From: an uncultured Bacteroidia bacterium
GTDB lineage: Bacteria; Bacteroidota; Bacteroidia; NS11-12g; UBA9320
DNA: 32,066 nucleotides
NCBI GenBank assembly: GCA_905478335.1
Contig: CAJQIC010000024.1
Location: 1-32,066 of the forward strand
Direction of reading: 5' to 3'
In this document: positions 18,986-27,418 of the stretch, in pieces
How the letters are laid out: the number at the start of each line of letters is the position of its first letter
How positions within the stretch are numbered: position 1 is the stretch's first letter
Program-made: the position numbers and the translations under genes
Notes under the pieces: model-generated
Told to the model about the DNA's origin: nothing
The model's database searches: none
The model's input: the letters and a program-made list of their open reading frames with translations, nothing else

Positions 18986-20905
18986 TTATTTCTTTATAAA
19001 TCGAGCAACCACAGATAGCTCCTTATCCATGAATTCAATGAAGTAGAGACCATTGGTAATGCCTGAAATGTCTATGGTTTTAAATATTTTTTGATTGACA
19101 TCAAAAGCCCCTTCAACAACTGTTTGTCCAGTGACATTAACAATGCGGTAAGTTGTAAATGGGTACCCAAATGATGACAAGGTTAAATAGTCAGTTGCAG
19201 GGTTTGGGAAGATTAGAACCTCTTTGTCGACATCATCTGTATGTATTACATCACTTGTTGCCAAAACCCAAAGGTTTGGATCAAAATCAACCGAATCAAC
19301 AGCAAAATCAACCTCGAACGATTGGCCAAAAGAGGAGGAGCTAGGGTTAAGTAGGATGCTTTTTTGATTGACGGTGTTCCTTAATCTCAATTGAATTGGC
19401 ATTTCGAAAAAATCCACATCACCATTGGTGGTTTGGTTTACGCGTATGTCTATAACCTTTCCTTTCTGACTCCAGTTAATCGTATAATGCGGATTGCCAG
19501 TCCCATAAAACCAATCATCGAAAAACTCACTGAGGTCCTTGCTTGAAGTTGATTCCAAATGGAACTTTAAATCGGAAGTTCTCGCAAATCCATGGTTTAA
19601 GTTTGGGGAGCTCAAATAATTCCGTAAACCTCGATAAAACAGTGAATCTCCAATTTGCCATTGAATCATTCTGAGCAACTGAGCTCCTTTGTTGTATGTC
19701 AAATGACTACTAAATAATCTCGAAACGTCAAAGGTGTCTATTACAAAAACGGATTCATCTGTTTCGCGCATAGCCCGTTCTTGACTGCCGAGTTGTACAT
19801 TTCTCCAGGTAATTGAGTCTTGCAGTGCTTCTCGAGCAAGGAGGGTGAAATAGGTAGCGAAACCTTCATTTAACCATAAGTCACTCCAAGAACCACAGGT
19901 CACTTGATTTCCAAACCATTGGTGTGCAAGCTCGTGTGCGATGAGTCCGAAGTTCCAACTCCCCATAAAACTCATTGTCTGGTGTTCCATACCTCCACCT
20001 CTAAGAAACTCGGCGTGGCCATATTTTTCCCCAATAAATGGATATGTGCCAATCAACGAGTCAAACAACTGCATAATAGGAATCGTCTTTTTAACCGCTT
20101 CTTCCATGTAAATACGGTTTTCCGGAAATACGTAGTTAAGAATTTCTAAACTATCACCATTTTTGAATGTAACCCAATCTGAAAATGAGTCATAATTGGT
20201 CACAGCAGTGGCTACTAAGTATGTCGTTATTGGATACCTATGGCGCCAGAAATATGTCTGTGTTGAATCGTTTATTTCTTGAATTGAAGCCAATACCCCG
20301 ATACCAGCAGCTTTGTTCCCTTTCGGCACCGTTATCTCCATATCCAATGAATCAATTTTGTCGTACAAACTTTGTTTGCAAGGCCACCATTCCATGGCTC
20401 CGTAGGGCTGGCTCAAAGTCCAAATTATCGGGGCAGAACTGTTTGCCCGTCCGGATTCACGTTCGTAGCTTCTTGACGGGTTCCCAGTAGGGTCGCCACT
20501 ATAATAAACATGTATGGAATCTTGTTTATCCATGGCTATAACACCATTCAACGTAATTTCTAATGTGTTACGGGCATGTGTAAATGTTGTTTTATTGCTG
20601 TGAAACAATACTGAGTCGACATTGAGAGAATCGCTAAGGTCAAAAGATATGCGACTAAAGTTTGGAATAAGGGGTTTAAAATAACTCGTCACCTTGCCCG
20701 ACATGTGTCTTTGTCGAGGATCTATATGGAGTGCAAGCCTATGATACAGGATGTCATAATCTTTTCCAACAAGCGATTTTTTTCCTTGAGACGACTTAAA
20801 CGTCGACAGGTCTCTGAATTTTGATTTGAATTCTGCTTCCGATTGAGAAAAACAATTTGCCTGAAATAAACCCAGACTTATTATGAATAGAATTCCTTTC
20901 CACAT
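18986..20905 (-). CDS. Secreted M1-family metallo-aminopeptidase with type A T9SS sorting domain
   Basis: The preferred ATG at 20905 gives 639 residues starting MWKGILFIISLGLFQANCFSQ, a good signal peptide; an ATG 54 nt upstream would put 18 unsuitable residues before it. The N-terminal beta domain leads to the substrate motif GGMEH (304-308) and the zinc site HELAH (324-328) with the third ligand E347 in WLNEGFATY, at the exact M1 spacing. A later TYNKGAQLLRMI segment supplies the conserved catalytic Tyr. The last 80 or so residues are a type A T9SS sorting domain: FPNPATDYLTL, V-x-G-Q-x-V-V, then GLYFIEF and a basic end. The enzyme is therefore exported and cell-attached or released, trimming peptides for nutrition. 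Confidence 0.95.
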   Translation of the reverse strand: MWKGILFIISLGLFQANCFSQSEAEFKSKFRDLSTFKSSQGKKSLVGKDYDILYHRLALHIDPRQRHMSGKVTSYFKPLIPNFSRISFDLSDSLNVDSVLFHSNKTTFTHARNTLEITLNGVIAMDKQDSIHVYYSGDPTGNPSRSYERESGRANSSAPIIWTLSQPYGAMEWWPCKQSLYDKIDSLDMEITVPKGNKAAGIGVLASIQEINDSTQTYFWRHRYPITTYLVATAVTNYDSFSDWVTFKNGDSLEILNYVFPENRIYMEEAVKKTIPIMQLFDSLIGTYPFIGEKYGHAEFLRGGGMEHQTMSFMGSWNFGLIAHELAHQWFGNQVTCGSWSDLWLNEGFATYFTLLAREALQDSITWRNVQLGSQERAMRETDESVFVIDTFDVSRLFSSHLTYNKGAQLLRMIQWQIGDSLFYRGLRNYLSSPNLNHGFARTSDLKFHLESTSSKDLSEFFDDWFYGTGNPHYTINWSQKGKVIDIRVNQTTNGDVDFFEMPIQLRLRNTVNQKSILLNPSSSSFGQSFEVDFAVDSVDFDPNLWVLATSDVIHTDDVDKEVLIFPNPATDYLTLSSFGYPFTTYRIVNVTGQTVVEGAFDVNQKIFKTIDISGITNGLYFIEFMDKELSVVARFIKK

Positions 20906-20911
20906 TGAACA

Positions 20912-20920
20912 TGCAAGATA
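20912..20920 (-). promoter_or_regulatory. Possible variant -7 box (TATCTTGCA) upstream of the M1 peptidase gene
   Basis: On the minus strand TATCTTGCA lies 6 nt before the ATG at 20905. The same 9-mer precedes the DUF2147 gene (9130-9138). It is one T short of the TAnnTTTG consensus. Weak evidence, given as a shared motif. Confidence 0.22.
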
Positions 20921-21065
20921 GTCTATATGCAGACGTGTAAGGTAATGACAGTAGTGCATAAATGACTAAATCCAACAATCTTTATATGCGAATGACAAAG
21001 CACCCCTATTCGATATATATTCGCCTCGTATTTATTTCATTACATTTACGCAACTAAAAATTATT

Positions 21066-23471
21066 ATGAAGAGACTTTTATCACTTGGGTTTACCACAAT
21101 ACTGAGTGTTACGGCGTTATATGCGCAGTTAACCCAAACAATCACCGGTAGGGTGGTTGATACAGATACAAAAGCCGGTTTGGCGGCAGCTACCGTTTTG
21201 GTCGAGACTGCTGATGGATTTGGTGCAACTACTGACGAAATGGGTTACTACGAGATCCTAGAAGTGCCAATTGGTCGACATCGTCTGTCTATTGAATATG
21301 TGGGTTATGATCCTATATCACGCGAGAACATAATGGTTACAAGCGGCAAGGCCGTGAACTTGGACGTTGAAATGGTAGAGTCCGCCAATACGTTAGGAGC
21401 CACTGTGGTTCAATTTAAAAAATCTAAGGTTAGAAGTAACAACGAAATGGTCTCTGTTAGTAGTAGGAGTTTTGATGCTGAGGAGGCTGAAAGATATCCT
21501 GGTAGTAGACAAGATCCTGCACGTATGGCGCAAAACTATGCTGGGGTCGCAGGCACCGATGACCAAAGAAATGATATTGTTGTTCGAGGAAATTCACCAT
21601 TAGGATTACTATGGCGTTTTGAAGGTGTTGACATATTTAACCCGAGTCATTTTGCCGTTGCAGGTTCTACAGGTGGACCAATCAGCATGATAAACAACAA
21701 ACTTGTTGGAAACTCTGACTTTATGACCAGTGCTTTCCCTTCTGAATATGGAAATGGAATTTCTGGTGTCTTCGATTTAAAGTTCAGAAACGGTAATTAT
21801 AATGAGGCTGAATATAGCGGTCAGTTTGGATTGTTTGGCACGGAAATACAAGCTGAAGGGCCTATAAACAAGAAAAAGAAGTCTTCGTATATCGTGTCAT
21901 ACAGGTATGCCACATTCGATATTTTTAGCTCTTTAAATATTGACCTCGGAACCGACGCTGTTCCTAAATACCAAGACTTAAATTTTAAACTAAACTTTCC
22001 GAACAAGAAAGGGTCATTTGCCATTTTTGGATTAGGTGGATTAAGTTCAATAGACATTGTATTTAGTGATGATTTTGAACCAACTGAAGAACTTTATGGT
22101 CAAAAAGACAGAGACCAATACTTTAGAACTAACATGGGCGTAATGGGCGCTACCTGGGAACGACAAATGAAAAATAACAAGTCATTGAATGTAGTGCTGG
22201 CGCACAACGTTCAACAGGTTTTGTCTGACCATAACAAAATCTTTAGAGACCCAAGCGAGTTTACAAATGTTTCATTGGTTCCGGTTTCTAGGTCAAAAAT
22301 GTTACATGGGAAAACGACATTACACGCTTCTTTGAACAAAAAATATAGTGCAAGGAGTAATCTGAAAGTTGGGTTAATAACAGACGCTTATTTCGTAAAT
22401 TATTTGGACAGTGTTCAAAATGAACTTGACCTAACGCAACCTATGACTGAGCTATTGAATGCACAAAACAACCCGTTAATGATTCGGGGATACGCAAGTT
22501 GGAAGTATCGCATAACTTCTATGCTTACACTTAATACCGGTCTTCATGGAATGCACTTTACCCAGAGCAACACAACATTAATTGAGCCTAGAGTCGGCCT
22601 CAAGTGGAGAAGAAGCTCCAACGAAACTTTTGGTTTTGGATATGGTATGCACAGCCAAGTACAGCCATTATACATTTACAACACCTTATTTGTAGATTCT
22701 GTAGGCAACAACTATGGAACGCATAATGATGGAATTGCTCCAACGCAAAGTCATCATCTCGTATTGTCTTACGAGAAGGTGGTTAAAAAGAATTTGAGGA
22801 TTCGTGGAGAGATCTATTATCAGCAGCTGTACAACGTTCCAGTAGAAGTTATTTCCAGCTCCTTTTCATTGTTGAACCAAGGTTCTGGGTTTGAAAGATT
22901 TTTTCCTGACGTGATGACCAACAGCGGTACAGGAACTAACCAAGGATTGGAGTTAACAGTAGAAAAGTTCTTTACCAATAATTATTATTTCATGGCTACA
23001 GGGTCTATTTATGATTCAAAATATAAAGGGAGTGATGGTGTCGAACGCAATACTGATTTTAATGCGAATTACATATTTAATTTCCTCGGTGGTTACGAAC
23101 ACAAAATGGGTAAGAATGATAAAAATGCGTTAATCTATGGGATGAAGTATACAGTTGGCGGCGGTAAGCGCTATTCCCCAATTGATACGGCGGCCACTAG
23201 GTTAGATGGGGCAAATGTTATTCTTGATGGCTCTCGTCGTAATATTTATCAATTCCAAGATTATAGCAGACTAGACCTAAAAATTGGATTGAGAATCAAC
23301 ACGAAAAAGACGACACATGAAATATCAATTGATATTGCGAACGTTCTGGATACTAAAAACGTATTAAAAGAGAGTTACTTTGACGATCCTGAAAATCCAG
23401 GATCCAAAATATTCGCTAAGGAATATCAACTCGGAAGACTGCCGAATTTTTGGTATAAATTTAATTTTTAG
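21066..23471 (+). CDS. TonB-dependent outer-membrane receptor with carboxypeptidase-regulatory-like N-terminal domain
   Basis: An 801-residue protein with a signal peptide (about 1-20, ending LYAQ). Residues about 22-108 form a CarboxypepD_reg-like beta-sandwich (ITGRVVDTDTKAGLAAATVLVE, TTDEMGYYEILEVPIGRHRLSIEYVGY). A plug domain follows (about 115-225, with NDIVVRGNSPLGLLWRFEGVDIFNPSHF), then a beta-barrel to the C-terminal Phe. It imports a substrate too large for porins using TonB energy. No SusD-type lipoprotein is adjacent, so it is not a classical polysaccharide SusC. It is followed 5 nt later by a cupin, an iodotyrosine-deiodinase-like enzyme and a PLP enzyme on the same strand, which may act on the imported compound. 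Its substrate is not known. Confidence 0.94.
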   Translation: MKRLLSLGFTTILSVTALYAQLTQTITGRVVDTDTKAGLAAATVLVETADGFGATTDEMGYYEILEVPIGRHRLSIEYVGYDPISRENIMVTSGKAVNLDVEMVESANTLGATVVQFKKSKVRSNNEMVSVSSRSFDAEEAERYPGSRQDPARMAQNYAGVAGTDDQRNDIVVRGNSPLGLLWRFEGVDIFNPSHFAVAGSTGGPISMINNKLVGNSDFMTSAFPSEYGNGISGVFDLKFRNGNYNEAEYSGQFGLFGTEIQAEGPINKKKKSSYIVSYRYATFDIFSSLNIDLGTDAVPKYQDLNFKLNFPNKKGSFAIFGLGGLSSIDIVFSDDFEPTEELYGQKDRDQYFRTNMGVMGATWERQMKNNKSLNVVLAHNVQQVLSDHNKIFRDPSEFTNVSLVPVSRSKMLHGKTTLHASLNKKYSARSNLKVGLITDAYFVNYLDSVQNELDLTQPMTELLNAQNNPLMIRGYASWKYRITSMLTLNTGLHGMHFTQSNTTLIEPRVGLKWRRSSNETFGFGYGMHSQVQPLYIYNTLFVDSVGNNYGTHNDGIAPTQSHHLVLSYEKVVKKNLRIRGEIYYQQLYNVPVEVISSSFSLLNQGSGFERFFPDVMTNSGTGTNQGLELTVEKFFTNNYYFMATGSIYDSKYKGSDGVERNTDFNANYIFNFLGGYEHKMGKNDKNALIYGMKYTVGGGKRYSPIDTAATRLDGANVILDGSRRNIYQFQDYSRLDLKIGLRINTKKTTHEISIDIANVLDTKNVLKESYFDDPENPGSKIFAKEYQLGRLPNFWYKFNF

Positions 23472-23476
23472 AGCAC

Positions 23477-23875
23477 GTGAGAAAAATATTGACTCTTGGA
23501 ATGTTGATTTTTCTAAGCCAGCTAGTGGCTGGTCAGGTAATACAAGCAAAATCACTTAAGCCGGACTCAACTTCGTATGCCAATGTATTTGTTAAGCCAC
23601 TTTATTCAGACAGTTTAAGCAGCTCTTTTGCCATTTGGATAAAAAATGAGGTAAAACCCCATAAGCACTTGAATCATTCTGAAGTGGTTACTGTATTGCG
23701 CGGAAAGGCAATAATGTGGGTAGGACAAGATTCAAGTGTAATCAAAAAAGGAGACGTCATTGTAATACCCAAAGGGACGGTACATTCAGTTGTGACAAAG
23801 AGCAAAAAACCACTGCTTGTCGTGTCGGTCCAGTCTCCACGTTTTGTTGGTAAAGATCGGGTATGGGTAAAATAG
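23477..23875 (+). CDS. Exported single-domain cupin protein
   Basis: A 132-residue protein beginning at GTG 23477, 5 nt after the TonB receptor stop; no ATG is available at a suitable place. It has a signal peptide (about 1-19, MRKILTLGMLIFLSQLVAG). The cupin motifs are KPHKHLNHSEVVTVLRG (metal ligands H62, H64 and E69) and GDVIVIPKGTVHSV (fourth ligand H103), so a metal centre is likely intact. Such periplasmic cupins may be enzymes or ligand binders; the reaction is unknown. Tight spacing on both sides (5 nt and 6 nt) places it firmly in the four-gene unit. Confidence 0.88.
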   Translation: MRKILTLGMLIFLSQLVAGQVIQAKSLKPDSTSYANVFVKPLYSDSLSSSFAIWIKNEVKPHKHLNHSEVVTVLRGKAIMWVGQDSSVIKKGDVIVIPKGTVHSVVTKSKKPLLVVSVQSPRFVGKDRVWVK

Positions 23876-23881
23876 GATAAG

Positions 23882-24544
23882 ATGGAAGAGAACTTTATAC
23901 CTTATCATCGGGAAGACCCATCAATAGAAGATCTGACCAAACGTTCGGAGGATTTCTATCATAGTTTGGACAAACGGCGGTCTGTGCGTGTTTTTGATTC
24001 TAAGCCAGTACCAAAGGCAATTATTGAAAACATAATACTGGCGGCAGGTACGGCACCTTCAGGTGCACATAAGCAACCTTGGACGTTCTGTGTACTTAGT
24101 AATGCTGAATTGAAGTCAAAAATTAGAGAAGCTGCAGAAACAGAGGAATACGAGAATTACCATGGTCGTATGTCAGAGGAATGGCTCAAGGATTTAAAGC
24201 AGTTTGGAACAGATTGGCGAAAACCATTTATCGAAATTGCTCCTTGGATAATTGTGGTCTTTAGAAAGACCTATGACTTAGATGGAGATCAAAAGACAAA
24301 AAATTATTACGTGCAAGAATCCGTAGGAATTGCTTGTGGTATGCTTATTACAGCGATACATAATGCGGGTCTTGTGACGCTGACGCATACACCTAGCCCG
24401 ATGAATTTCCTTACTAAAATTCTGAATAGGCCGGTAAACGAAAAGCCATTTTTATTACTTCCTGTTGGCTATGCAGCTGCTGATGCCAGCGTTCCGGACT
24501 TAAAGCGGAAGTCGCTTAAAGACATTGCTGTTTTTTACGAATAA
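23882..24544 (+). CDS. Iodotyrosine deiodinase-type FMN nitroreductase (IYD homologue)
   Basis: A 220-residue nitroreductase-fold flavoprotein. It matches the iodotyrosine deiodinase (IYD) branch far better than generic nitroreductases: RRSVRVFDSKPVP, AAGTAPSGAHKQPWTF, the active-site lid TEEYENYHGRMSEEWLKDL, then TDWRKPFIEIAPWIIVVF, YYVQESVGIACGMLITAIHNAGLVTLTHTP, and VPDLKRKSL near the end. The three residues that clamp halotyrosine in human IYD (E157, Y161, K182) correspond with exact spacing to E89, Y93 and K114 here. IYD enzymes reductively remove iodine, bromine or chlorine from tyrosine. No signal peptide, so cytosolic. Its stop overlaps the next start by one base (TAATG), suggesting coupled translation. 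A bacterial IYD is known from the Bacteroidota species Haliscomenobacter hydrossis. Confidence 0.9.
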   Translation: MEENFIPYHREDPSIEDLTKRSEDFYHSLDKRRSVRVFDSKPVPKAIIENIILAAGTAPSGAHKQPWTFCVLSNAELKSKIREAAETEEYENYHGRMSEEWLKDLKQFGTDWRKPFIEIAPWIIVVFRKTYDLDGDQKTKNYYVQESVGIACGMLITAIHNAGLVTLTHTPSPMNFLTKILNRPVNEKPFLLLPVGYAAADASVPDLKRKSLKDIAVFYE

Positions 24545-25413
24545 TGTTTGATCACAAATCGATTGTTCAAGAGATAAAAACACCATTTGTGTTGAAATCA
24601 GGTGTTCGTGTGTTTATGCAGCGAGATGACCAGATTCATCCCTTTATTTCAGGGAATAAATGGTTTAAATTGAAACACAACATTCGTGATTTTTTAACCA
24701 GTGAGGCAACATCTATAATGACCTTTGGTGGTGCGTATTCAAATCATCTTGTAGCCACTGCTGCGGCATGCGCAATGCAACAAATACCTTGTATGGGAAT
24801 GGTCAGAGGTGATGAACTGCAGCCCAATTCAAATTATGTTCTTCGCCTATGTTCTGAATTTGGTATGAAGTTGAAGTTCATATCTCGGCAAGGGTATTCA
24901 GAGGCAAAACGTAATCCGTCAGAATTTGAAAATAAGAAGGTGTTTGTCATTCCTGAGGGAGGTGACAATGCAGCCGGAATCTTAGGATGTCAAGACATTG
25001 TTAAGGATTATACGCTATTTGACCATGTTGCGGTACCAGTGGGCACGGCAACTACTTTTAGCGGGATAATAAATGGGTCCAAAGGAGAAAGTCATATTCA
25101 AGGATTTGCCGCGTTAAAAAATGCGTCCTACTTGTCTGAAACGGTCAGTGGCAATACATCGTATAACAATTGGACTCTTCAAACGTCATACAGTTATGGT
25201 GGTTTCGGGCATTTTGACGAAAGCCAATCAAAATTTAACCGTCAATTCGCCAGTGAAACCGGAATCTTACTTGATCCAGTGTACACTGGCAAAATGATGC
25301 GCGGTGTTTATGCTTTGATCAGCGAAAATGTGATTAAGCCAGTTGAATCAGTTCTTTGCATTCACACTGGGGGTCTTACAGGACTTTTATCCGAAAAGTG
25401 GTTGAATTCTTAA
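24544..25413 (+). CDS. PLP-dependent ACC deaminase/D-cysteine desulfhydrase family enzyme
   Basis: A 289-residue fold-type II PLP enzyme. ISGNKWFKLKHN holds the PLP-binding Lys39, FGGAYSNHL is the conserved phosphate or substrate loop, and PVGTATTFSGI and HTGGLTGLL complete the family signature. Members act on 1-aminocyclopropane-1-carboxylate or on D-cysteine; with the residues visible, a D-cysteine desulfhydrase-like role is the safer guess because the chain is shorter (289 against about 330-340 residues). It begins inside the stop codon of the IYD-type gene (TAATG overlap), so the two are likely translated together. Its link to halotyrosine use is inference only. Confidence 0.87.
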   Translation: MFDHKSIVQEIKTPFVLKSGVRVFMQRDDQIHPFISGNKWFKLKHNIRDFLTSEATSIMTFGGAYSNHLVATAAACAMQQIPCMGMVRGDELQPNSNYVLRLCSEFGMKLKFISRQGYSEAKRNPSEFENKKVFVIPEGGDNAAGILGCQDIVKDYTLFDHVAVPVGTATTFSGIINGSKGESHIQGFAALKNASYLSETVSGNTSYNNWTLQTSYSYGGFGHFDESQSKFNRQFASETGILLDPVYTGKMMRGVYALISENVIKPVESVLCIHTGGLTGLLSEKWLNS

Positions 25414-25466
25414 CTTGTCGTAAAACAAGCTCCAGTACATAGACTTAACGTAGTTTCTAGCCGATA

Positions 25467-25910
25467 TTATTTGTTAGAGGGCGGCTTGACGTTAGCCTTA
25501 ATGGTAAACATAGATGGGCTCATTTCACTGTTGTATATAATCGACAATGTCTTTATCTGATTGCCAACCTTACCTGCTGAGTTAAACGAAACCGTAATTT
25601 CACCAGTTTTACCAGGTTCAATTGGTTCTTTCGACCACGTTGGTGCGGTACATCCACATGGGGTGTTAATTCGACTAATGACCAATGGAGCAGAACCGTC
25701 GTTCACAAATGTGAACACATGAGTTACTTTAGCACCCTGGTCGATTGTTCCAAAATCATACTCCGTTTCATTCATTAACAGTTTTGGAGTACCCACAGGA
25801 GTTAAGGTAATTACAGGTTTTTCTTCTTGATCGGTTTCATCTTGAGCAAGAACAATGGTTGAGTTAAAGCAAAATCCAGCCAACAGGATAGTAAGTAATA
25901 TATATTTCAT
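25467..25910 (-). CDS. Exported DUF1573 protein (copy 1)
   Basis: A 147-residue protein with a signal peptide (about 1-22, ending VLAQ) and one DUF1573 immunoglobulin-like domain: YDFGTIDQGAKVTHVFTFVNDGSAPLVI, then TPCGCTAPTWSKEPIEPGKTGEITVSFNSAGKVG. The Cys pair C85/C87 in CGCT is the family hallmark. DUF1573 proteins are common in Bacteroidota envelopes and their function is not known. The second paralogue lies directly upstream on the same strand, separated by a terminator, so the two are probably transcribed separately or with attenuated read-through. Confidence 0.92.
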   Translation of the reverse strand: MKYILLTILLAGFCFNSTIVLAQDETDQEEKPVITLTPVGTPKLLMNETEYDFGTIDQGAKVTHVFTFVNDGSAPLVISRINTPCGCTAPTWSKEPIEPGKTGEITVSFNSAGKVGNQIKTLSIIYNSEMSPSMFTIKANVKPPSNK

Positions 25911-25948
25911 TTGTGTTGTTTCGTTTTAATAGGCTAAAATTATGCCAA

Positions 25949-25982
25949 AAAAAACCCAAACAACAAGTGTTTGGGTTTTTAA
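25949..25982 (-). terminator. Rho-independent terminator between the two DUF1573 genes
   Basis: Arms AAAACCCAAACA (25951-25962) and TGTTTGGGTTTT enclose a short ACAAG loop. Read on the minus strand the stem is followed by a run of eight T. It lies 18 nt past the stop of the upstream DUF1573 gene (26000) and before the start of the downstream one. Confidence 0.88.
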
Positions 25983-25999
25983 GTGTTTTAATGTTTTTC

Positions 26000-26449
26000 T
26001 TATTTTGGATTCGCTTGTACCGGTGGTGCAGCGTCAACTGGAGCACTCTCTACAGTACCTCTAATTGTAAGAAATTGAGTTCCATTTTCGCCATTATACT
26101 TTACAGTAATGGTTTTTGTGAAATTCCCAGGACGTCCTTTAGAGTTGTAAATCGCTGTTATCTCCCCAGTAGCTCCTGGAGCCACAGGCTCACGTGTCCA
26201 TTTTGGAGTCGTGCATCCGCATGAAGCACGTACAGAATTTAGTACTAAAGGCTCATTTCCAGTGTTTGTAAATTTAAATGTCACTGTCGCTTGAGTGCCT
26301 TCTGTGATTTTGCCAAAGTTGTGTTCTACTTTTTCAAATTCGATTTTAGCACCTGTACTGCCATCTGCTTCTACAGTTTCTGTATTTTGTGCTTGTGTGA
26401 AAGCTACAAATCCTATAGCCAATAACAATGTAACAAATGTTCGTTTCAT
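26000..26449 (-). CDS. Exported DUF1573 protein (copy 2)
   Basis: A 149-residue protein with a signal peptide (about 1-20, MKRTFVTLLLAIGFVAFTQA). It has the DUF1573 layout: HNFGKITEGTQATVTFKFTNTGNEPLVL, then ASCGCTTPKWTREPVAPGATGEITAIYNSKGRPGNF, with Cys77 and Cys79 in the CGCT motif. It ends in a Pro/Ala-rich tail. It is clearly paralogous to the downstream gene in domain and motif order but the sequences have diverged well. A good -33/-7 promoter lies upstream (26484-26515). Function unknown. Confidence 0.93.
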   Translation of the reverse strand: MKRTFVTLLLAIGFVAFTQAQNTETVEADGSTGAKIEFEKVEHNFGKITEGTQATVTFKFTNTGNEPLVLNSVRASCGCTTPKWTREPVAPGATGEITAIYNSKGRPGNFTKTITVKYNGENGTQFLTIRGTVESAPVDAAPPVQANPK

Positions 26450-26483
26450 AATGTTTAAGTTGTCGTGTTTAAATATTTAAAGT

Positions 26484-26515
26484 CAAAATTACTCGTTCAT
26501 GGGTAATTAAACAAA
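26484..26515 (-). promoter_or_regulatory. Full Bacteroidota promoter (TTTG-N20-TAATTTTG) for the DUF1573 gene
   Basis: On the minus strand TTTG (26512-26515) is followed after exactly 20 nt by TAATTTTG (26484-26491), matching both the -33 and -7 consensus elements of Bacteroidota sigma-70 promoters at the expected spacing. The predicted leader to the ATG at 26449 is roughly 30 nt. This is the best promoter in the window. Confidence 0.6.
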
Positions 26516-26540
26516 TGACGTGCCAAAAACGACACAACCA

Positions 26541-27317
26541 TTAATTTCTATAGTTAGCCCTGCGTTTTTCACGGAATGACGACGTACCTTCTTCAAATTC
26601 TTCTGTTTCGAAACAGGAGCCAAAGTGTTCTATTTCCAATGCCATTCCGTCCTGATTCGTGTCAAAGTATGCCTTGACACATTCCATTGTTTTTGCAATA
26701 CCTTGTGGCGATTTTACTGCTATCTTGTTTATGATAGAGTAACACTTCTCCATAAGTTCTGCTTGGTCCACTACGTGATTAACCAAACCCAAATTCAGTG
26801 CTTCTTTAGCGCCAATCATGTCGGCGGTGGTCAGCATTTCTATCGCTTTACCTTTACCTACAAGTTGTATTAATCGCTGAGTGCCTCCATAACCAGGAAT
26901 CAAACCTAAGTTTACCTCCGGTTGTCCAAACTTTGCGTTTGGGCTGGCAATACGCATATGGCAAGCCATAGCCAATTCGCAGCCTCCGCCAAGAGCAAAG
27001 CCATTGACAGCTGCCAATACAGGTTTGAGACAATTTTCAACCGCATGCATAACCGCATGTCCATCGGCGCTTAACTGGCGTCCTTGTGTTTTACTAAAAT
27101 CTTTGAACTCTGCGATATCCGCACCAGCTGCAAAAGCCTTTTTCCCAACACCAGTAATGATTATACCATATACGGCTGGGTTTGCTTCAGCTTCTTCAAC
27201 GGCTTTTTTAATTTCCTGAAGCAGCGTTGCATTAAGTGCATTCATCTTATCCTCACGATTAATCGTAATGGTATAAATGTGGTTGGCTAAGTCTGTTCTG
27301 ATAAACTGAAAAGGCAT
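26541..27317 (-). CDS. Enoyl-CoA hydratase/isomerase (crotonase family)
   Basis: The ATG at 27317 gives 258 residues, the standard length; an ATG 63 nt upstream would add an atypical leader and sits upstream of the putative promoter box. Crotonase motifs are intact: KAFAAGADI (60-68) and FALGGGCELAMA form the oxyanion hole, E114 and E134 (QPEVNLGLIPGYGGTQRL) are the two catalytic Glu residues of a true hydratase. It would hydrate short-chain enoyl-CoA in fatty- or amino-acid breakdown. It is divergent from methylmalonyl-CoA mutase, with a 114-nt shared upstream region, which fits joint use in branched-chain amino-acid or odd-chain acyl-CoA catabolism. Confidence 0.94.
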   Translation of the reverse strand: MPFQFIRTDLANHIYTITINREDKMNALNATLLQEIKKAVEEAEANPAVYGIIITGVGKKAFAAGADIAEFKDFSKTQGRQLSADGHAVMHAVENCLKPVLAAVNGFALGGGCELAMACHMRIASPNAKFGQPEVNLGLIPGYGGTQRLIQLVGKGKAIEMLTTADMIGAKEALNLGLVNHVVDQAELMEKCYSIINKIAVKSPQGIAKTMECVKAYFDTNQDGMALEIEHFGSCFETEEFEEGTSSFREKRRANYRN

Positions 27318-27332
27318 AAATTTAAATTTCGG

Positions 27333-27340
27333 CAAAAATA
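27333..27340 (-). promoter_or_regulatory. Consensus -7 box TATTTTTG for the enoyl-CoA hydratase gene
   Basis: TATTTTTG on the minus strand fits TAnnTTTG and ends 15 nt before the ATG at 27317. It supports 27317 as the start, since the longer ORF start at 27380 would lie upstream of the promoter. No clear -33 TTTG was found. Confidence 0.4.
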
Positions 27341-27418
27341 CATTAAACTGAAGTTCAGTGCTGTGAATTGGACAATACATGTAGATGAGGTTTAAAGATG
27401 TAGTTTCATTCCCTTTTT

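Follow-up and report, generated by a model that had tools for sequence, protein, structure and literature searches.

The window, defined as the whole 32,066-nucleotide stretch of DNA analyzed here, carries a set of four closely spaced forward-strand genes. In order, these encode a TonB-dependent-receptor-like outer-membrane protein with an N-terminal carboxypeptidase-regulatory domain (positions 21066–23471; 801 aa; PF13620/PF13715 above cut-off), a single-domain cupin with a GTG start (23477–23875; 132 aa; Cupin_2, E = 1.4e-12, above cut-off), an iodotyrosine deiodinase (IYD; 23882–24544; 220 aa), recognized from its sequence, residues, and fold model and by homology an FMN-dependent reductive dehalogenase, and a PLP enzyme of the PALP fold (24544–25413; 289 aa; PALP above cut-off) nearest to the D-cysteine desulfhydrase/ACC deaminase-like group. 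The ORF calls give a gap of 5 nt between receptor and cupin, a gap of 6 nt between cupin and IYD, and a 1-nt overlap between IYD and the PLP enzyme, so that the tight, same-strand arrangement described in an earlier note on this DNA is correct. Upstream of the receptor gene is a divergent gene for an M1-type peptidase. On the downstream side, two DUF1573 proteins and an enoyl-CoA hydratase (25467–27380, reverse strand; assigned from ORFs, domains, and the loci of relatives) converge on the set, and a methylmalonyl-CoA mutase gene lies beyond them. The DUF1573 proteins form a tandem pair (25467–26449), the first of which scores 72.5 bits on the NCBIfam OS_HP2 (seleno)protein model (NF041425; cut-off 100); at the related locus L110 (genome G034), four DUF1573 proteins occur in tandem.

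In the 3660 bases around the IYD gene, the Bacteroidota promoter motif TANNTTTG does not occur, although 4.3 matches would be expected, and the region 20900–26600 contains 11 sigma-70-like sites versus 16.6 in shuffled sequence. Because no promoter was identified by these scans, co-transcription is judged from gene spacing, which indicates that the IYD gene is probably co-transcribed with the receptor, cupin, and PLP enzyme genes in the lineage that carries this operon. Inspection by eye finds signal peptides on the receptor and the cupin, and none on the IYD or the PLP enzyme, by which the four products would be spread over three compartments without an inner-membrane carrier to connect them. 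Among the window's ORFs, the four-gene set contains no inner-membrane transporter, and a complete uptake route is therefore not encoded there.

The gene at 23882–24544 encodes a full-length, real bacterial IYD. In a phmmer search against the PDB, six IYD chain sequences rank above the other 33 matches (5ko7, E = 1.1e-89; mouse IYD, 6.5e-61; human IYD, 2.3e-59; 6pz0, 1.7e-24), and the best non-IYD nitroreductase has an E-value of 5.4e-11. Sequence identity is 61% to the IYD of Haliscomenobacter hydrossis (HhIYD; over 216 residues), 48% to the mouse enzyme, and 46% to the human enzyme; it is 24–25% to NfsB, YdjA, a paralogue in the same genome, and a BluB. The protein is a member of PF00881 in the nitroreductase superfamily, scores 52.4 bits on the BluB family model TIGR02476 (below its curated cut-off of 150), and has only one match in the window's own genome at E ≤ 0.001. 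Residues E89 (codon at 24146–24148), Y93 (24158–24160), and K114 (24221–24223), all on the forward strand, align with human E157, Y161, and K182, which we take to be the halotyrosine/substrate contacts. The human residue offset in this alignment was set by hand and then confirmed by structure-entry numbering, in which residues 3–220 of the model correspond to human residues 71–290. Together with W101, L105, T110, and T170 (human W169, L173, T178, and T239, the last presumably the Thr near FMN N5), these three residues are the same in all 101 aligned IYD rows, 96 of them distinct (the frame-broken sequence from genome G030 is left out), and the five outgroup nitroreductase rows lack the full residue set. 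Hence the intact halotyrosine clamp is a rule for the family, and not a peculiarity of the window. Also recognizable are the RRSxR motif (R32-R33-S34-R36) and the PSGAH motif (P59-S60-G61-A62-H63). The sequence from G030 (locus L019) has a TAA stop inside the IYD match and may represent a pseudogene or an assembly error.

IYD is a homodimer, and the structural comparison made here used a single-chain model (pLDDT 90.1). The first twelve entries returned by the fold search are all IYD crystals, led by 5ko8 (Z = 27.0, 1.6 Å over 217 residues, lid included) and with 4ttc close to it (Z = 26.9); the first non-IYD entry has a Z-score of 18.9. The claim that the protein has the IYD lid, and that E89, Y93, and K114 are spaced as in human IYD, was thus confirmed by alignment, entry numbering, and fold. 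A tree with outgroups was rejected as proof of an IYD clade, as the outgroup branches are saturated (length 10) and two of the five outgroup rows (Escherichia coli NfsA and a BluB) were placed among the IYD rows; the identification consequently rests on sequence, residues, and fold.

The enzyme type is already known from the same phylum, Bacteroidota, and the gene is a genuine but ordinary bacterial IYD. HhIYD (5ko7, 5ko8, 5krd), an active deiodinase for which the PDB titles name bound iodotyrosine, has the same E/Y/K contacts and does not differ from the window IYD in any of the tested residues. Compared with vertebrate IYD/DEHAL1 (4ttb, 4ttc, 3gb5, 3gh8; 46–48% identity), the window protein retains the equivalents of E157, Y161, K182, and T239, but lacks a membrane anchor (as judged by eye) and has K64 and S172-P173 where the human enzyme has T132 and L241-N242. 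The IYD of entry 6pz0, presumably from Thermotoga neapolitana and solved with FMN and L-tyrosine, matches the fold at Z = 22.9, but only at 30% identity over 184 aligned residues. DEHAL1 is presented as a member of the nitroreductase family in one article (PMC7538488). Among open-licence papers, we found none joining iodotyrosine with TonB-dependent uptake, none on halotyrosine together with IYD or with reductive dehalogenation, and none on a Thermotoga iodotyrosine deiodinase, although absence from that body of literature is weak evidence. To our knowledge, the reason why bacteria keep an IYD is not settled.

For the receptor (21066–23471), the earlier label of TonB-dependent receptor carries one reservation: the N-terminal carboxypeptidase-regulatory domain alone exceeds its Pfam cut-off, whereas the match to the Plug domain (PF07715) is weak (E = 0.058; 14.4 bits versus a cut-off of 23.9) and the beta-barrel (PF00593) is not matched. 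One of eight scanned receptor relatives (L116, with 40% full-length identity to the window receptor) passes both the Plug (24.3 bits) and the TonB_dep_Rec PF00593 model (52.9 versus 27). By sequence, the PDB entry closest to the receptor is that of a carboxypeptidase D domain (E = 0.0036); the AlphaFold model of the receptor, built from a five-row alignment, is not usable (pLDDT 40.3). The cupin has a signal-peptide-like N-terminus by eye, and its His and Glu residues are conserved in 11 of 11 aligned relatives, in a pattern that we take to be that of metal-binding cupins. The best NCBIfam model for the PLP enzyme is the D-cysteine desulfhydrase family TIGR01275, at 118.1 bits and thus below the cut-off of 289.4, and the best PDB match is 1j0a (E = 1.4e-20); these are likewise PALP-type and have the GNK, DPVYTGK, and HTGG motifs in common with the window protein. 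The SGNK and HTGG motifs are common to PLP proteins of the operon and to those not linked to an IYD (11 of 11 aligned), and there is therefore no sign of a changed PLP active site in the operon.

At E ≤ 1e-40, an IYD gene is carried by 106 of the 396 genomes searched in the class and by 19 of the 108 in the order. All 19 belong to the window's family (here f1; 38 genomes), and one of them is G030 with its internal stop; the named relatives are Bacteroidota. Six of these 19 genomes (G000, G032, G033, G034, G036, G037), from three genera, have the order receptor-cupin-IYD-PLP enzyme, and one further genome (G012, 78% complete), from a fourth genus, has cupin-IYD-PLP enzyme without the receptor (genera g1, g7, g9, and g10 together). 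With longest-ORF starts, neighboring genes of the operon in f1 overlap by as much as 23 nt or are separated by as much as 40 nt, and across the tightly coupled genera the identity of the partners falls to 39% for the PLP enzyme, 52% for the cupin, and 58% for the receptor. Homologues of the receptor, cupin, and PLP enzyme are found at none of 75 other named IYD loci (stretches of 3.4–20.7 kb; blastp, E ≤ 1e-5; 80 named loci less five whose IYD is identical to that of an f1 genome). Conservation of the neighborhood, as raised in the earlier note, consequently holds for 7 of the 19 IYD-bearing f1 genomes (6 with all four genes) and for 0 of the 75 other named loci: the neighborhood is lineage-bound, and the four-gene operon is found only in one small bacterial group.

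Within f1, 32 of 38 genomes have the PLP gene, compared with 19 of 38 for the IYD and 25 of 38 for the cupin; the receptor is found in 14 of 38 at E ≤ 1e-60 and in 9 of 38 at more than 50% identity. All nine genomes with such a close receptor are IYD-positive, including three in which the two genes are unlinked. In the four genomes examined for this feature (G001, G005, G006, G028), the neighbors of the PLP gene are DUF1573 and enoyl-CoA hydratase genes, and no IYD is present at the locus; in G001 and G010 the receptor and cupin genes are near each other, with one divergent gene between them and the IYD elsewhere. The downstream flanking genes are also kept beside the operon in G034, G036, and G037. 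Since this lineage generally conserves the order of its genes, a shared order says little by itself about shared function. On its simplest reading, the operon appears to unite neighborhoods that are older and were once separate, and to have been kept by descent. In G035, an 87%-complete genome from the window's genus, none of the four operon genes has a match at the thresholds applied.

The remaining 12 IYD-bearing f1 genomes share a different setting, in which a gene for a biotin/lipoyl protein is beside the IYD in 12 of 12, and PadR and PspC genes (9 of 12) and a DUF3078 gene (9 of 12) occur within about 1.5 kb. Three of these loci are without PspC, two being cut by contig ends and one (G023) uncut. 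The 19 loci thus fall into two settings that do not overlap (7 cupin/PLP and 12 biotin/lipoyl). At loci L101 (G001), L103 (G010), L106 (G017), L113 (G020), L114 (G028), and L115 (G023), the series runs from a PadR regulator through a PspC-domain protein, the IYD, the biotin/lipoyl protein, and a DUF3078 protein to a receptor-like gene; PadR and PspC are missing from L115. At five of six loci retrieved at length, the receptor-like gene shares the strand of the IYD and follows it at a distance of three or four genes; the sixth is cut by a contig end. The one such receptor tested, at L101, contains a Plug domain, and the gene after it encodes an HMA/MauE-domain protein.

We also constructed a tree without outgroups, which comprised 61 rows after duplicates were dropped and rows from outside the family were reduced to roughly one in two. 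In this tree, the 11 intact IYDs of the second setting cluster together, separate from the operon rows (support 93/99), and the two settings therefore hold two different groups of IYD. Counting f1 rows only, the seven operon IYDs make up one side of a branch (93/99), with rows from outside the family lying among them; a single clade for the seven is not rejected (p-AU = 0.173), nor is one for the six without G012 (p-AU = 0.412).

Across the class, the PLP gene is found in 256 of 396 genomes, versus 106 of 396 for the IYD, and relatives of the receptor in 247 of 396. Of the 101 IYD genomes outside f1, one (G119) has a cupin homologue no more than 10 kb from the IYD, with five ORFs between them. 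Among the matches listed, a receptor homologue lies within this distance in 1 of 41 non-f1 IYD genomes with coordinates (G290, with two ORFs between them, one on the other strand), and a PLP homologue in 0 of 37. Cupin and IYD co-occur at the level of the genome outside f1: 34 of 71 genomes with a cupin also have an IYD, versus 67 of 313 genomes without one (odds ratio 3.4; p = 1.9e-5 by Fisher's test, with no correction for relatedness).

If the four-gene set is a joining of older neighborhoods kept by descent, then the enzyme most likely works alone, with partners that are probably not pathway steps. We consider it moderately likely that the window gene specifies a cytosolic FMN-dependent IYD of this kind, whose neighbors do not perform further steps of a halotyrosine pathway. 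In this enzyme, by homology, E89, Y93, and K114 would hold a halotyrosine beneath the lid, and reduced FMN would supply it with electrons; iodide, bromide, or chloride would then leave the free halotyrosine, with release of tyrosine, and this product may enter ordinary catabolism via the HPPD route. HPPD (TIGR01263) is encoded in 35 of 38 f1 genomes, and so an outlet for tyrosine would exist with or without an IYD. Several observations count against an IYD acting alone: the tight coupling across four genera despite the divergence of the partners, the restriction of the close receptor to IYD-positive f1 genomes (three of the nine unlinked), the co-occurrence of cupin and IYD outside f1, the lack of all four genes in G035, as if they had been lost together, and the receptor-like gene that is near the IYD in five of six loci of the second setting as well.

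With the exception of G035, the same observations are those that favor the route envisaged in the earlier note, in which the receptor would import a tyrosine-like compound, or a peptide, that carries halogen, the cupin would act on it in the periplasm, the IYD would dehalogenate it in the cytosol, and the PLP enzyme would handle the amino-acid part. The tight coupling covers all four genes in six genomes of three genera, and cupin-IYD-PLP enzyme in one more genome, which belongs to a fourth genus. We nonetheless regard this route as unlikely, given that the set contains no inner-membrane transporter, that the SGNK/HTGG motifs of the PLP enzyme are the same with or without an adjacent IYD, that 12 of the 19 f1 IYDs have other direct partners, that the genes flanking the operon are conserved too, that receptor relatives are widespread, and that the PLP gene is common without an IYD both in the family and in the class. 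What stands of the earlier proposal is thus the identity of the enzyme, on sequence, residues, and fold; the dedicated route finds little support in a gene set kept in 7 of 19 IYD-bearing f1 genomes and at 0 of 75 other named loci. Two other explanations concern the substrate. Membership of the nitroreductase superfamily (PF00881), PspC/PadR neighbors in 9 of 19 f1 IYD genomes, which hint at a membrane or stress context, and the worm orthologue SUP-18, which reportedly acts on a potassium channel, would fit a main role in reducing another compound (of quinone, nitro, or flavin type) or in redox sensing, with deiodination as a side activity; the invariance of the halotyrosine-contact residues in all IYD rows, and the lack of the set in the five other nitroreductases, make this improbable. 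It is very improbable that the operon has its role in sulfur or D-amino-acid metabolism, centered on the PLP enzyme, and that the IYD was recruited for a non-tyrosine substrate: the PLP enzyme is nearest to the D-cysteine desulfhydrase/ACC deaminase-like families, but it passes no curated cut-off there, and the halotyrosine residues of the IYD are intact.

A small chance remains, in our estimate, that the set is an operon, not described before, with which one Bacteroidota family scavenges halotyrosine: capture of halotyrosine or halotyrosyl peptides at the outer membrane would be followed by the periplasmic cupin step, reductive dehalogenation by the IYD in the cytosol, and disposal of the amino-acid part by the PLP enzyme. 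If so, together with the receptor-like gene of the second setting, it would for the first time link dedicated uptake systems to an IYD in bacteria. The interest of the case lies in the two alternative settings rather than in a demonstrated pathway. These non-overlapping settings, with their different IYD groups, offer defined, testable contexts for the cellular role of IYD, and the case warns against inferring a pathway from one operon.

HPPD was considered as a marker of a link to tyrosine and rejected, as its presence in nearly all f1 genomes makes it non-discriminating. Two HPPD-type genes above cut-off occur in 6 of 6 genomes with the four-gene set versus 5 of 32 other f1 genomes, a post hoc comparison that is confounded by kinship; in G000, the pair is located at C74:2179-3243 and C41:2161-3063. 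At the 75 named loci, the gene upstream of the IYD is oriented oppositely in 22 cases and lies on the same strand within 30 nt in 17. A short-chain-dehydrogenase-like gene is directly upstream of the IYD, on the same strand, at 14 of the 80 named loci, of which 11 are titled Saprospiraceae, and the gap between the two genes is less than 30 nt at 7 of the 14 (examples of this arrangement are L040, L052, L072, L090, and L099).
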